Source: Parasphingorhabdus marina DSM 22363
GTDB taxonomy: Bacteria; Pseudomonadota; Alphaproteobacteria; Sphingomonadales; Sphingomonadaceae
Assembly: GCF_900128895.1 (NCBI RefSeq)
Contig: NZ_FSQW01000002.1
Span: forward strand, 1,054,001-1,118,000
DNA length: 64,000 nucleotides
Direction of reading: 5' to 3'
This document shows, one piece after another, positions 6,047 to 18,755 of this stretch (positions are counted from its first letter, which is position 1; each line of letters starts with the position of its first letter). Below the pieces are notes generated by a model, which made no database searches, was not told the DNA's origin, and saw only the letters and a list, made by a program, of their open reading frames with translations. A program made the translations under genes and the position numbers.

Positions 6047-6718
6047 CTAGTCCGCAAACATGGGCGACACTTCGCCCACCGCTTCCCTCTCTCTGGCAAT
6101 GATCCGGGAGAATGAGGGACGGGAATGGATGCGATCGACATAGGCTGCGAGAGTGGGCCATTGTCCGGCATCTACCTCTTCACCGGCATGCCGCATGTTG
6201 ATGAAAATGCTGCCGGCCGTCACGTCAGCCAGCGTCATGGCATCACCCATCAGAAAGGACTTGTCTCCATCCAGCTGGCTTTCCAGATAGTGGAAATGCC
6301 GCGGCAGTAATGCGAGTGCCTGATCAATCGCCGCCTGATCCGATTCCTTTTGAAGCAGCACCGGATTGACGAAACGGTGGATGAACAACGGGGCTTCCAC
6401 TTTCGAAAACAGGCCGGTCGCAAGATAGTCGCACAGCCAGTGCATCCACCCGAGATCCCAGCTGTCTTTCGGGAATAGCGGCGGATCGGCAATCTCGCTT
6501 TCCAGAAATGCACAGCCGGCCAGTGAGTCGGGCAGAAAACGTCCATCAATCTCGAGCACCGGGACCTTGCCCAGCGGACTGATCTTCAGAAATTCCGGAT
6601 CGGGATCACCCAGCGGCACCACATTGACGATGTCATAGGAAACCCCCTTTTCCTCGCAAAACGCCAGAAGCCGGCGCACCCAGGGGGACATTATGGTTCC
6701 GTGAATGGTGACGTTCAT
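6047..6718 (-). CDS. Glutathione S-transferase family protein
   Basis: A 223-residue GST with an N-terminal thioredoxin-like domain (about 1-78; IHGTIMSPWVRRLLAFCEEKGV, then GKVPVLEIDGRFLPDS, with the cis-Pro of KVPVL) and a helical C-terminal domain. Ser11 in MSPWVRR sits at the usual catalytic position. GSTs conjugate glutathione to electrophiles. The start at 6718 has a GGAGGA site; an upstream in-frame ATG lies in the operator and is rejected. It is divergent from the tautomerase/SDR operon, and both are read away from a 45-base palindrome, so shared control is likely. Confidence 0.9.
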   Translation of the reverse strand: MNVTIHGTIMSPWVRRLLAFCEEKGVSYDIVNVVPLGDPDPEFLKISPLGKVPVLEIDGRFLPDSLAGCAFLESEIADPPLFPKDSWDLGWMHWLCDYLATGLFSKVEAPLFIHRFVNPVLLQKESDQAAIDQALALLPRHFHYLESQLDGDKSFLMGDAMTLADVTAGSIFINMRHAGEEVDAGQWPTLAAYVDRIHSRPSFSRIIAREREAVGEVSPMFAD

Positions 6719-6756
6719 AAATTTTCCTCCGCTGCTGAAATCGCATCTGCAAAGTA

Positions 6757-6801
6757 GTTGCAATATAGGACCAGTTATCGTACTTGGTCTTATATTGCAA
6801 C
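6757..6801. promoter_or_regulatory. 45-base dyad, candidate HxlR operator of GST and tautomerase operons
   Basis: Two 17-base arms face each other: GTTGCAATATAGGACCA at 6757-6773 and TGGTCTTATATTGCAAC at 6785-6801, 16 of 17 complementary, with an 11-base spacer. Read in each gene's own direction the arm is TGGTCYTATATTGCAAC, ending 38 bases before the GST start and 42 bases before the tautomerase-like start; the internal TATATT could serve as -10 element of each promoter. The same box lies in front of the nearby hxlR gene at 8828, with the same overall span. Binding by that regulator is inferred. Confidence 0.65.
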
Positions 6802-6843
6802 CATGCTAGGAGGGATTTCCTGGCGCGAAGGAGGAAAATGATC

Positions 6844-7158
6844 ATGACGACATGCAATTGTATCGTGCAGGCCGGACAGATATCCGGAGAAACGCAGGCT
6901 GGCTTGCGGTCACGTCTCGATGCTTTCTCCCAGGCCAGTTTCGGGTCCCCTGCGGAGATCGGCTGGGTCGAGATTGCACCCGGCAGCGGCTATACCGCCA
7001 CACAGCCGTCCACTTCGTCCATTGTCTCGCTGACCGCTGACAAGCCGCTGGAACAGTCTGAACGCATCCCGATGCTCAGGGATCTGTGTGACCTCTGGTC
7101 GGCAGAGACCGGCTGTTCGCTCGACGAAATCGTCGGCGTGATCAACGACCCCGCCTGA
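6844..7158 (+). CDS. Tautomerase-fold protein lacking the catalytic N-terminal proline
   Basis: A 104-residue protein, MTTCNCIVQAG... Its second half (SIVSLTADKPLEQSERIPMLRDLCDLW...GCSLDEIVGVINDP) follows the same pattern as the tautomerase encoded next (GSIRAGRSAEQKAQIIDEMRQAI...GLPQDDIQVVIRDTP), so I place it in the tautomerase superfamily. The residue after the start is Thr, not the Pro that acts as catalytic base. Two starts compete: 6838 lies only 3 bases after the AAGGAGG site, while 6844 has 9 bases and is preferred; neither gives Pro. It is the first gene of an operon with the tautomerase and SDR. Function unknown; a partner subunit or a different chemistry are both possible. Confidence 0.7.
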   Translation: MTTCNCIVQAGQISGETQAGLRSRLDAFSQASFGSPAEIGWVEIAPGSGYTATQPSTSSIVSLTADKPLEQSERIPMLRDLCDLWSAETGCSLDEIVGVINDPA

Positions 7159-7184
7159 ACGCAACATATCAGCAGGAGAAACCC

Positions 7185-7595
7185 ATGCCTCTTTACATGA
7201 CCAATGCCGTCCAGGGCGCGATCACCGATGCCGCCAAGCAGAAGATCGCAACAGACATCACCCGCATCCACTGTGATGTCACCGATGCCCCACCCGCCTT
7301 TGTCCACGCTTTTTTTGTGGAAGACGCGCCGCACATGCCGCTCGACGGCAAGGCGGCCTTTCTGCTTGGCAGCATTCGGGCCGGACGGAGCGCTGAACAA
7401 AAGGCGCAAATCATCGATGAGATGCGTCAGGCGATTCACGAGCATTCTGGACTGCCGCAAGATGACATTCAGGTCGTGATCCGGGATACGCCCGCCAGCT
7501 GGGTGATGGAGGGCGGTGATATCATGCCCGAACCCGGTGAAGAGGATGATTGGTTTGCAGCGCATGAAGCCAGAAAGGCGGCAGAAAATGCCTGA
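7185..7595 (+). CDS. 4-oxalocrotonate tautomerase-like protein
   Basis: A 136-residue tautomerase-superfamily protein. After Met removal the N-terminus is Pro (MPLYMTNAVQGAIT), the general base of this family. A core beta-alpha-beta unit with AFLLGSIRAGRSAEQKAQII and a C-terminal PASWVMEGG segment follow, resembling the longer tautomerase type (putative cis-3-chloroacrylate dehalogenase-like group). Such enzymes interconvert keto and enol forms or hydrate unsaturated acids. An AGGAGAAA site precedes the ATG. It follows the proline-less homologue by 26 bases, and its end overlaps the SDR start by 8 bases. Confidence 0.85.
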   Translation: MPLYMTNAVQGAITDAAKQKIATDITRIHCDVTDAPPAFVHAFFVEDAPHMPLDGKAAFLLGSIRAGRSAEQKAQIIDEMRQAIHEHSGLPQDDIQVVIRDTPASWVMEGGDIMPEPGEEDDWFAAHEARKAAENA

Positions 7596-8313
7596 GTCTG
7601 CAATCATAGTCGGGGCCGGAGCATCCAATGGTGTGGGCGGCGCACTGGCGCGGCAATTCGCCAGCCAGGGCCTGCATGCGATCATCGCCGGGCGCACCGA
7701 AGAAAAGGTGCAGAAAATTGCCGAGGAAATCTCGGCTGACGGCGGGTCGGCCGAGGGTGTTCGTGTCGATGTCACGTCCGAGGAAGATCAGGATGCCCTG
7801 TTCGCTCTGGCTGCGGAACGGGGACCGATCGGAGCCGTGCTCTACAACGCCGGCAACAATGCCATCATTCCCTTCGAACAGCTTGATGCGAAAACCCTGG
7901 AAGACTTCTGGCGGGTCGGCTGTTTCGGCGCTTTCCTGACTGCCAAACGGGCAATCCCGGTACTCAGGGATCAGGGCAAGGGCAGCCTGTTCTTCACCGG
8001 CGCTTCGGGCTCGATGCGCGGCAAGCCCAATTTCGCGCATTTCGCGTCAATGAAAGCCGGACTGCGCATGCTTGCCCAGTCACTCGCCCGCGAATTTGGT
8101 CCGCACGGCGTCCATGTCGCCCATTTCGTCATCGATGGCGTGATCGACGGCGACATGGTGCGGAGCCGGTTCGGCGAATTTCTGGAGCAACTGGGGGAGG
8201 ATGGGTGCCTCAGGCCCGAAGCCATTGCCGAGGCGTTCTGGCATGTCCACATACAGCATCGCTCGGCCTGGACCCATGAACTGGACCTCCGCCCTTTCAA
8301 GGAAAACTGGTAA
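7588..8313 (+). CDS. Short-chain dehydrogenase/reductase-family protein with FxxxK active site
   Basis: A 241-residue Rossmann-fold protein. The nucleotide motif is VGAGASNGVGGALARQFA near the N-terminus, with an AGR segment after beta-2 that favours NADP(H). The NAG motif is present (YNAGNNA), and the catalytic Ser lies in TGASGS. The usual YxxxK reads FASMK, so Phe replaces the catalytic Tyr. Homologues with this replacement exist and are annotated as SDR oxidoreductases. The ATG at 7588 overlaps the tautomerase stop, giving translational coupling; a longer reading from 7516 would cover the tautomerase end and is rejected. Its role in the module is inferred to be carbonyl metabolism. Confidence 0.87.
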   Translation: MPESAIIVGAGASNGVGGALARQFASQGLHAIIAGRTEEKVQKIAEEISADGGSAEGVRVDVTSEEDQDALFALAAERGPIGAVLYNAGNNAIIPFEQLDAKTLEDFWRVGCFGAFLTAKRAIPVLRDQGKGSLFFTGASGSMRGKPNFAHFASMKAGLRMLAQSLAREFGPHGVHVAHFVIDGVIDGDMVRSRFGEFLEQLGEDGCLRPEAIAEAFWHVHIQHRSAWTHELDLRPFKENW

Positions 8314-8332
8314 GCCGCCAGCCTTTTGTAGT

Positions 8333-8812
8333 TCAGGCCTGGTCCCTGGCCCAGTTTTTCGGCGGCACATCATCCGCCTGTCGCATGCGGACTTCGTTGA
8401 GCGGCATCATTTCACCATTTTCCCGGCGCGGCCAGACCCGCGGCAGGCGCTCCCCGGTCTGCCCGTCAATAATCTCTGTCGATGGTCCCTTCTCGTGCGG
8501 CACCCATTTGTCGCCCCATTGCGACAGGGCGATCATCACCGGCGCCAGCTCCCGCCCGCGCTCGGTCAGGACATATTCGTCAAAGGCAGACCCGTCCGAC
8601 GCGGGCACCTTTTCCAGAATGCCCGCTTCTACCAATTGCGCCAACCGCACGGTCAAGGTGTTCTTGGCGATCCCCAACGACTTTTCAAAATGCTTGAAGC
8701 GCCGCGCACCCATCATCACGTCCCGGATGATCAACAGTGACCACCAGGAACCGACATGTTCCAGCGTCCGCGCGATCGAGCATTGCATGTCCGAGAATGA
8801 CTTGGTTTTCAT
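8333..8812 (-). CDS. HxlR-family winged-helix regulator
   Basis: A 159-residue regulator. The winged helix covers about residues 18-95 (ARTLEHVGSWWSLLIIRDVMMGARRFKHFEKSLGIAKNTLTVRL), followed by a C-terminal extension. Cys11 (SDMQCSIART) sits where the single N-terminal redox Cys of HxlR regulators such as YodB and HypR lies; those respond to quinones, diamide or aldehydes. I start at ATG 8812 and reject an upstream in-frame start that would run through the operator. It is convergent with the SDR gene and divergent from the GFA gene. A box matching that of the GST/tautomerase promoters lies 15 bases before its start, pointing to self-control and module control. Confidence 0.88.
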   Translation of the reverse strand: MKTKSFSDMQCSIARTLEHVGSWWSLLIIRDVMMGARRFKHFEKSLGIAKNTLTVRLAQLVEAGILEKVPASDGSAFDEYVLTERGRELAPVMIALSQWGDKWVPHEKGPSTEIIDGQTGERLPRVWPRRENGEMMPLNEVRMRQADDVPPKNWARDQA

Positions 8813-8827
8813 GGCCTGCTCTATCTG

Positions 8828-8872
8828 GTTGCGATATAGGACTGTAAAGCATGCATAGGGCGATTTTGCAAC
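8828..8872. promoter_or_regulatory. Second 45-base dyad, candidate HxlR autoregulatory site
   Basis: On the minus strand CAGTCCTATATCGCAAC (8844-8828) matches the GST box at 14 of 17 positions and ends 15 bases before the hxlR start. The opposing arm at 8856-8872, facing the GFA gene, is degenerate (11 of 17) but keeps TTTTGCAAC. The two arms span 45 bases, exactly as at 6757-6801. Shared geometry at both ends of the module supports a common regulator; this is inference. Confidence 0.55.
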
Positions 8873-8937
8873 CACTTGCAATTGTCGTCCGGTCATCCGA
8901 ACGATAGGAACAGAACGATCCGGGAGGGACAGCCATC

Positions 8938-9339
8938 ATGTTGAACGGCCAATGCAATTGCGGAGCGGTATCTTTTGAAATCGCGATGGATCTGACGGAC
9001 ATCTACATATGCCACTGCTCAATCTGCCGGAAATGGTCCGGAACAAACGGCATAGCGGTCACCATCGTGCCCAATGACCGGTTTCGCTGGGTTTCGGGAC
9101 AGGACAGGATTGCCAGCTGGCAAAAACCCGGAGCGGACTGGCAAAGCTGGTTCTGTCGTGATTGCGGCTCTGCCCTGCCCGGCAATAATGATGATCAGGC
9201 CATGTTTGTCCCTGCGGGCCTGGTTCTAGGCGAGACCGGAAATCTCAAGGTCGCTCATCACATCTGGGTGGATTCAAGCGCGGATTGGGACCAGATTGGT
9301 GACGACGGCAAGCAGCACTCAAAAGGGTTTCAGGCCTAG
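8938..9339 (+). CDS. GFA/CENP-V family zinc protein
   Basis: A 133-residue protein with the GFA fold named after glutathione-dependent formaldehyde-activating enzyme. Zinc-ligand motifs are visible: GQCNCGAV at the start, CHCSICRKWSG about residue 24-34, and FCRDCGSAL about residue 77-85. Family members are thought to bind S-hydroxymethyl-glutathione or related thiol adducts, but few are proven. GGGAGGGA precedes the ATG at a good distance. It is divergent from hxlR across the second dyad, so it may belong to the same glutathione and electrophile unit as the GST. Confidence 0.88.
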   Translation: MLNGQCNCGAVSFEIAMDLTDIYICHCSICRKWSGTNGIAVTIVPNDRFRWVSGQDRIASWQKPGADWQSWFCRDCGSALPGNNDDQAMFVPAGLVLGETGNLKVAHHIWVDSSADWDQIGDDGKQHSKGFQA

Positions 9340-17650: not shown

Positions 17651-17822
17651 GGTCGATACCAAAATGGCGCTGACCAAAAGCAGCCGGAAGAGTGACCGAG
17701 GGCGGCGGGAGAGTCAATGATTCTATCGACTCTGGCCCGAAATTCCGATCGCATATTTGGCGGTTTGATAATCCGGTTGTTGCAGCATAAGATGGCATTC
17801 CCCCAATGTTTGAGGTTGGATA

Positions 17823-18755
17823 ATGAAATCAGCATCTGGTGCACTTCTGCCCCTGTTCCTCCTGAGCGCATTTCCGGCGACCGCCACCGAACCTGAACGC
17901 CCCGGGGTCGAGGCCGAGGAAAAGCAGGCAAATGAACCGATCGTGGTAACCGGACAGGATATCCGCGACGCGACGCGATCTTTTGTGAAACAGCTGCGGA
18001 TTCCAGAATATGGCGGACAATATGCCCGATGGGAGGCCCCGCTTTGTCTGCAGATGATTGGCTGGCAAAAAGAGCATGCTGCTAACGTTAAATCGTTGAT
18101 CGAAAGACTCACCAGAGAGATTGGCCATGACGTGGCTGGAGCGGACTGTCGCCCGAACATGGCAATTGTCCTTTCCCCGGATCCCAAGAGATTTGTTGAT
18201 CAGCTCCGCAAGTCTGCCCCGCGAATATTCACCCGGTTCAGTCGCAGTCAGCGCCGAGCCGCAACGGAGGGCAATCAACCGGTCAGGCTTCTGTTAGGAG
18301 CTCGGGATTTGAACAAGGACGGACAACCCATCCATTTCGCTGGCGCACTAGCCCCTCCTCCCGGACTGGAAGCTCTCGGCGGGATCAGCGAATCGATAGT
18401 CCGGGGTGGCGGCGTTGGAAACTCGCGGATCGGCACCACGGTCAAGTCAGACTTCGTAGCCGGGGTTGCAGTTGTCGATGTGCATGCGATCGATGGTGCA
18501 ACATTTGAAGGCCTGTCTTCCTATCTGGCGATGCGCTTGCTGTCCGGAGTCCCCGGCAGCAGGATACCGGATGGTGGAGAAACAATTTTGCAGCTGTTCC
18601 AGGCACTTGGAGAAGAAGCTCAACCGCCGACAAAATTATCCAGGTGGGACATGGCGTTTTTGCGCGGCCTTTATGGCAGTACCGCAGCCGCCCGATCGGT
18701 GCAGCAGCGCGGAGAAATCATCAGGTCGATGCGCAAATCGCTCGCCCTGCCCTGA
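17823..18755 (+). CDS. Secreted protein of unknown function with a TonB-box-like motif
   Basis: A 310-residue protein with a clear signal peptide (MKSASGALLPLFLLSAFPATA, cleavage about residue 21). Just after it comes EPIVVTGQDIRD, which looks like the TonB box of receptors, although no plug or barrel follows. Two cysteines, C75 (APLCLQMIG) and C109 (GADCRPNMA), may form a disulphide. The rest is a mixed alpha/beta domain ending in helices. I do not recognise an enzyme motif. It is divergent from the gcv operon, 425 bases from gcvT, and has a GAGG-type site. Confidence 0.8.
   Translation: MKSASGALLPLFLLSAFPATATEPERPGVEAEEKQANEPIVVTGQDIRDATRSFVKQLRIPEYGGQYARWEAPLCLQMIGWQKEHAANVKSLIERLTREIGHDVAGADCRPNMAIVLSPDPKRFVDQLRKSAPRIFTRFSRSQRRAATEGNQPVRLLLGARDLNKDGQPIHFAGALAPPPGLEALGGISESIVRGGGVGNSRIGTTVKSDFVAGVAVVDVHAIDGATFEGLSSYLAMRLLSGVPGSRIPDGGETILQLFQALGEEAQPPTKLSRWDMAFLRGLYGSTAAARSVQQRGEIIRSMRKSLALP

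Follow-up and report, generated by a model that had tools for sequence, protein, structure and literature searches.

The two dyads described here are most likely paired operators through which an HxlR-type regulator controls a glutathione S-transferase gene (GST), a tautomerase operon (T1-T2-SDR) and its own gene; this reading was reached by comparison of sequences across related loci. In the window, by which we mean the whole 64 kb stretch of DNA that was analysed, the gene order over positions 6047-9339 is GST on the minus strand, dyad A, then T1, T2 and SDR on the plus strand, hxlR on the minus strand, dyad B and a GFA-family gene on the plus strand. The features are as follows.

6047..6718, minus strand: GST, glutathione S-transferase family, 223 aa (Pfam GST_N_2, E 3.5e-15; GST_C, E 1.8e-08), divergent from the tautomerase operon
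6755..6773, minus strand: predicted operator box A1, GST side, a 19-bp imperfect palindrome with 1 mismatch to the 19-bp consensus
6757..6801, no strand: dyad A in the limits of the initial annotation, 45 bp, paired 17-mer matches
6785..6803, plus strand: predicted operator box A2, T1 side, 0 mismatches to the consensus, centre 30 bp from A1
6838..7158, plus strand: T1, putative tautomerase-like paralogue without Pro1, 106 aa (profile match to 5uif; no Pfam match)
7185..7595, plus strand: T2, cis-CaaD-like tautomerase with Pro1, 136 aa (Pfam Tautomerase and Tautomerase_3)
7588..8313, plus strand: SDR, 241 aa, Phe in place of the catalytic Tyr (Pfam adh_short, E 6.8e-32)
8333..8812, minus strand: hxlR, 159 aa, proposed repressor with a single Cys (Cys11) (Pfam HxlR, E 2.1e-19)
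8826..8844, minus strand: predicted operator box B2, hxlR-proximal, 3 mismatches to the 19-bp consensus
8828..8872, no strand: dyad B in the limits of the initial annotation, 45 bp, the weaker copy
8856..8874, plus strand: predicted operator box B1, degenerate, hxlR-distal on the GFA side, 3 mismatches, centre 30 bp from B2
8938..9339, plus strand: GFA-family gene (Pfam GFA, E 3.1e-23), a neighbour and no conserved member

Dyads A and B sit within two divergent intergenic regions, with GST to the left of A and GFA to the right of B. The dyads had been described as bracketing a GST/tautomerase/SDR/HxlR/GFA module; T1-T2-SDR-hxlR is indeed enclosed by them, but GST and GFA lie outside.

Paired boxes in the window and the host genome

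A scan of the 64 kb window with the 17-mer TGGTCCTATATTGCAAC, allowing up to three mismatches, gave three sites: 6757-6773 on the minus strand with no mismatch, 6785-6801 on the plus strand with one and 8828-8844 on the minus strand with three. The number expected by chance is 0.10 per window, and three sites were reached in 0 of 100 shuffles. The scan confirms what the initial annotation had reported, namely nearly the same box at each of these places, a span of 45 bases for both paired sites (6757-6801 and 8828-8872) and a degenerate fourth box, its figure of 11/17 being recovered as the arm match of dyad B; the arms of dyad A agree at 16 of 17 positions. When upstream regions were read, each box proved to extend to an imperfect palindrome of 19 bp, approximately TGGTYYNATAWTGCAACCA, which is the natural unit. 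Each dyad consists of two such boxes with their centres 30 bp apart, the whole element covering 49 bp, and in both boxes no axis of symmetry scores higher than the one through the proposed centre (0.55 and 0.62, against 0.43 and 0.40 for the best other axis). The weaker of the two dyads is B, each of whose boxes differs from the 19-bp consensus at three positions.

Across the host genome (G000), a search for TGGTCYTATATTGCAAC with up to three mismatches gave 12 places, among them the three window boxes, and its reversed control gave five. Outside the window, the closest match (C2:691618, one mismatch) falls within a coding frame. The idea of a wider regulon in this genome was rejected on the places that were scored: five of the nine outside places were scored as 19-mers (L003-L006 and L008) and carried two to five mismatches, and the best of these five, L003 with two, is within a coding frame. 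Chance or a general genomic repeat as the source of the window dyads was rejected on the scans of the window, the host genome and the family.

We note a few further observations in this genome. The near-perfect box at L003 (1462-1517; G000:C2:691618) has a weak inverted partner that begins 39 bp away, and the 464-aa frame that holds it is O-antigen-ligase-like by eye; this box is probably due to chance. A 19-mer with two mismatches at window positions 17813-17831 lies over the start (17823) of a 310-aa frame (17823-18755), and may likewise be a chance match. About 12 kb before the window, a 208-aa open frame (G000:C1:1041662-1042150; L013 and L014) has two separate HxlR-type domain matches and is apparently a tandem wHTH protein.

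Conservation of the boxes and their link to hxlR

A scan of genome contigs with the HxlR protein returned 43 loci, ten of which (L015-L024) are at least 68% identical and come from source records of Sphingorhabdus, Marinicaulis, Henriciella, Hyphomonas, Parasphingopyxis, Sphingomonas and Hyphomonadaceae. Together with the window and G142 (L081) these make up 12 close loci, G272 being the same as L022 and G389 the same as L015, each counted once; L016 and L018 are on short contigs. The 15 nearer hxlR loci are the 12 close ones plus L108, L109 and L115 (55-59% identity), and the nine distant loci are L087-L095 (43-47% identity). The 19-bp consensus was written after inspection of L015-L024 and L086-L095. 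Boxes with at most two mismatches were present in the 200 bp upstream of hxlR at 19 of 24 loci (13/15 nearer, 6/9 distant), and with 100 shuffles per locus as a control there was no locus in which more than one shuffle held a box. At this cut-off no box was found upstream of hxlR in the window itself, where each of the two boxes has three mismatches, in L024, where a box is present upstream of T1 only, or in the distant loci L088, L090 and L093. L108 and L109, which are out of sample for the consensus, have one box each, between hxlR and T1. By the initial annotation's own criterion, a lack of the boxes next to orthologous genes would refute its claim; they are conserved there in several genera, and the claim was not refuted.

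The arrangement of the boxes varies between lineages. Two boxes are found upstream of hxlR in eight of the 12 close loci, with a centre spacing of exactly 30 bp in all eight, and the T1/GST-side pairs of the window and L015 also have a centre spacing of 30 bp. Other centre spacings upstream of hxlR are 22 bp (L115) and 37-39 bp (L089, L091, L092 and L095). As the spacings differ and single boxes occur, the 45-bp dyad would be no separate motif but one of several layouts of a common operator. When 397 family genomes were scanned with the 45-bp pattern, zero-mismatch dyads were present in four genomes only (G000, G142, G272 and G389), in each case in the hxlR/tautomerase gene cluster. Nineteen further family genomes matched with two or three mismatches, and these look like chance since the reversed control matched 17 genomes. 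A scan of 385 class genomes for the exact 19-mer gave seven matches against five for its reversed control: one in the window, three upstream of HxlR genes (L116, L120 and L122) and three at L117-L119, with no HxlR match within the 3-kb locus. Among the four newly found exact-19-mer loci, only L122 adjoins an HxlR gene. The motif alone is too unspecific to find HxlR genes genome-wide, and it is therefore the position beside hxlR that carries the argument.

This position could be compared across 19 loci that carry T1, a box being counted if it lay no more than 200 bp upstream of either gene, hxlR or T1. Boxes were found in 14 of 14 T1 loci with hxlR and in none of the five without (Fisher P 8.6e-5, a value that overstates the case because the loci are related). 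The five are L110-L114, in which there was no match to the window HxlR in 9-12 kb; a LysR gene stands beside T1 in four of them, and at L112 the gene adjoining T1 is semialdehyde dehydrogenase-like. On a tree of T1 plus T2, the regulator label needs three changes on the best tree and as few as one if only well-supported branches are used. The initial annotation had linked the boxes to hxlR and to the promoter region between GST and the tautomerase operon; this comparison upholds the link, and the boxes are very probably HxlR operators. We propose with good confidence that HxlR is the regulator that uses the 19-bp boxes. Another possibility, which we consider unlikely, is that a different regulator binds them and hxlR merely travels along, as might be suspected from the fact that dyad B, beside the window's own hxlR, is the weakest copy. 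However, the boxes track hxlR and were not found at T1 loci without it; similar boxes lie upstream of six of the nine distant HxlR genes, whose 1.5-kb flanks contain neither T1 nor T2; and the newly found class match L122 is again upstream of an HxlR gene.

The dyads may also contain promoters. In 10 of 13 dyads TTGCAW lies in the outer arm and is followed by TA 17 bp on. A generic consensus promoter scan found nothing, and we therefore infer promoter overlap from TTGCAW with TA 17 bp on. An explanation that would dispense with operators sees the dyads chiefly as divergent promoter elements placed face to face, with the outer TTGCAW as -35 and TAnnnn at the centre as -10, so that the symmetry is simply that of two promoters. 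The TTGCAA/T motif with TA 17 bp downstream in 10/13 dyads fits this, as does the position of dyad A between divergent genes. Against it, the boxes were present in 0/5 of the T1 operons without hxlR. Both arms are kept at the hxlR gene of L015, even though its upstream gene points the same way; single boxes exist; the consensus promoter scan was empty; and the ACCA/TGGT arms are not sigma-factor elements. We give divergent promoters as the main source of the symmetry a low probability, and HxlR operators remain the preferred reading.

The tautomerase pair and the conserved module

No Pfam match was found for T1. A profile of 12 T1 orthologues matches 5uif (Ps01740) at E 2.5e-7, the same entry that is the best match of the T2 profile, and direct alignment of T1 with T2 by hhalign is weak (probability 14%, E 0.0019). 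Pro directly after the initiator Met is found in none of the 12 T1 orthologues, and in four of the 12 there is a Pro one residue later. On this profile evidence, T1 is a tautomerase-like paralogue without the catalytic Pro1. The T2 profile matches 5uif (E 2.2e-26), 3n4g (6.3e-21) and cis-CaaD 2flt (1.3e-13). Its residues P2, H29, R65, R68 and E109 are invariant in 12/12 orthologues and align with those of 3n4g; we take them to be the equivalents of Pro1, His28, the Arg pair and Glu114 of cis-CaaD/Cg10062-type enzymes. T1 adjoins a Pro1-bearing T2 in all 19 T1 loci, with hxlR or (4 loci) LysR nearby, and it is possible that the two form a heteromeric tautomerase. The SDR is unusual in having FAxxK instead of YxxxK in all ten orthologues read; the catalytic Tyr position is likewise Phe in 3h7a, the best match of the SDR among solved structures.

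Within the flanks of the 12 close loci, T1 and T2 are present in 11 (not L016), SDR in eight, GST in six, a DUF4345 gene in five and GFA in one. The conserved module is hxlR plus T1 plus T2, often with SDR, GST and DUF4345. The DUF4345 gene was seen at L015 (5484-5882), L016 (5486-5869), L018, L019, L020, L110, L111 and L114, and had no match in the window. GFA had been counted as part of the module, which was not borne out: it is beside hxlR in only one of the 12 close loci, and was rejected as a core member. At L022, a GFA relative of 35% identity is present about 3 kb away. In the gammaproteobacterial loci L029-L031, a GFA-family gene (28-30% identity) is found beside a distant HxlR that has no N-terminal Cys.

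The module looks accessory, since neither a dyad nor a T1 match was found in nine other genomes of the same genus. T1 matches with E up to 1e-8 occur in at least 6 of 397 family genomes and at least 7 of 385 class genomes, the window's own included, with at most 12 candidates scored per genome, and a search of plasmids with T2 gave 14 records, all below 60% identity. A literature search, with most subscription journals outside its scope, found no description of the operon or operator and no publication joining HxlR with tautomerase and glutathione S-transferase.

Proposed regulation and known systems

The window HxlR scores 69.6 bits against PF01638 (cut-off 20.8) and is an HxlR-type winged HTH protein, with 4gcv and PA1607 2f2e as its best matches among solved structures. 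We propose that an HxlR dimer binds the 19-bp imperfect palindrome, with dyad A offering paired operators across the divergent GST/T1 promoter region and dyad B across the hxlR promoter region. The promoter would lie inside the dyad and the second box over the start. Since promoter and start regions seem to be covered by the boxes, HxlR is probably a repressor of GST, of T1-T2-SDR and of its own gene; its release would come from an inducer, possibly a thiol-reactive or unsaturated carbonyl compound. On the enzyme side, T2 probably acts as the catalytic member, a tautomerase or hydratase of cis-CaaD-like type, possibly with the Pro1-less T1 as its partner. An electrophile response is possible, though less likely than not. 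More broadly, and only tentatively, the PA1607-like HxlR subfamily across Alphaproteobacteria may share one 19-bp operator, single or paired, with a spacing fixed by lineage (22, 30 or 37-39 bp), and in the present branch it may control an undescribed detoxification pathway made up of a two-subunit tautomerase (T2 catalytic, T1 without Pro1), a Tyr-less SDR and GST.

The N-terminal Cys11 to which the initial annotation drew attention is present, and together with Ile13 it is invariant in 12/12 HxlR orthologues, but it is weak evidence for quinone or aldehyde sensing. An N-terminal Cys was found in 34 of 37 parsed HxlR proteins (60 submitted), and the residue two on is Ile, Val or Leu in 34/34; most of the 23 unparsed proteins are from Streptomyces and are cut to begin at the Cys, and those of L029-L031 are visibly without it. 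As outlined in PMC7835342, formaldehyde sensing by Bacillus subtilis HxlR needs both Cys11 and Lys13, which form a Cys-Lys methylene bridge. With Cys common to the family and Lys13 replaced by Ile, Cys11 says little about the inducer, and the B. subtilis mechanism of formaldehyde sensing would not be available to this HxlR; it was rejected as Ile takes the place of Lys13 in 12/12 orthologues. This bears on the idea of a glutathione/formaldehyde response unit with GFA as an effector and HxlR sensing formaldehyde via Cys11. GFA does adjoin dyad B, and at L029-L031, too, a GFA-family gene stands next to a distant HxlR, yet GFA is beside hxlR in just 1/12 close loci, the Lys13 described for B. subtilis HxlR in PMC7835342, as excerpted, is Ile throughout, and the HxlR proteins of L029-L031 have no Cys. 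Such a unit is highly improbable.

The paired boxes provide a testable operator candidate for a little-studied branch of HxlR regulators. They also draw attention to an operon that looks accessory and includes two enzymes of unusual make-up: a paralogue of the tautomerase apparently without Pro1 and an SDR without the catalytic Tyr. The tautomerase pair is found with either of two unrelated kinds of regulator. The identity of the inducer would show the purpose of the operon.

Among known systems, the enzymes closest to T2 are cis-CaaD and Cg10062, the latter presumably 3n4g: T2 aligns with them over nearly its full length, and conservation extends to Pro1, to the His and the two Arg residues and to the Glu that precedes GG, with roles that we assume to be the same. 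It differs from both in coming with a Pro1-less operon partner, T1. YodB, CatR, QorR and HypR are electrophile and thiol-stress regulators with an HxlR/DUF24 fold and an N-terminal Cys that control detoxification enzymes locally. The window HxlR resembles them in fold, in the N-terminal Cys (which is not diagnostic) and in its proposed local control; the target genes differ. The HxlR of B. subtilis, which we take to be of the same Pfam family, is alike in its N-terminal Cys11 and in the match of 7bze to the window HxlR (E 0.00045), but Lys13 is absent from the window protein (Ile in 12/12). A second difference is one of direction: the box positions in the window point to repression, but the B. 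subtilis protein mediates a rise in transcription with formaldehyde, as outlined in PMC7835342. The HxlR-type protein PA1607/BosR of Pseudomonas aeruginosa (2f2e) matches the window HxlR over residues 3-143 at E 1.9e-29; bosR is needed for biofilm growth, and its function was then uncharacterised according to PMC9611778, which, as excerpted, names neither an operator nor a target for it. Local HxlR regulons beside detoxification-type genes are already known, and this small, rare operon is most likely a new example of them.
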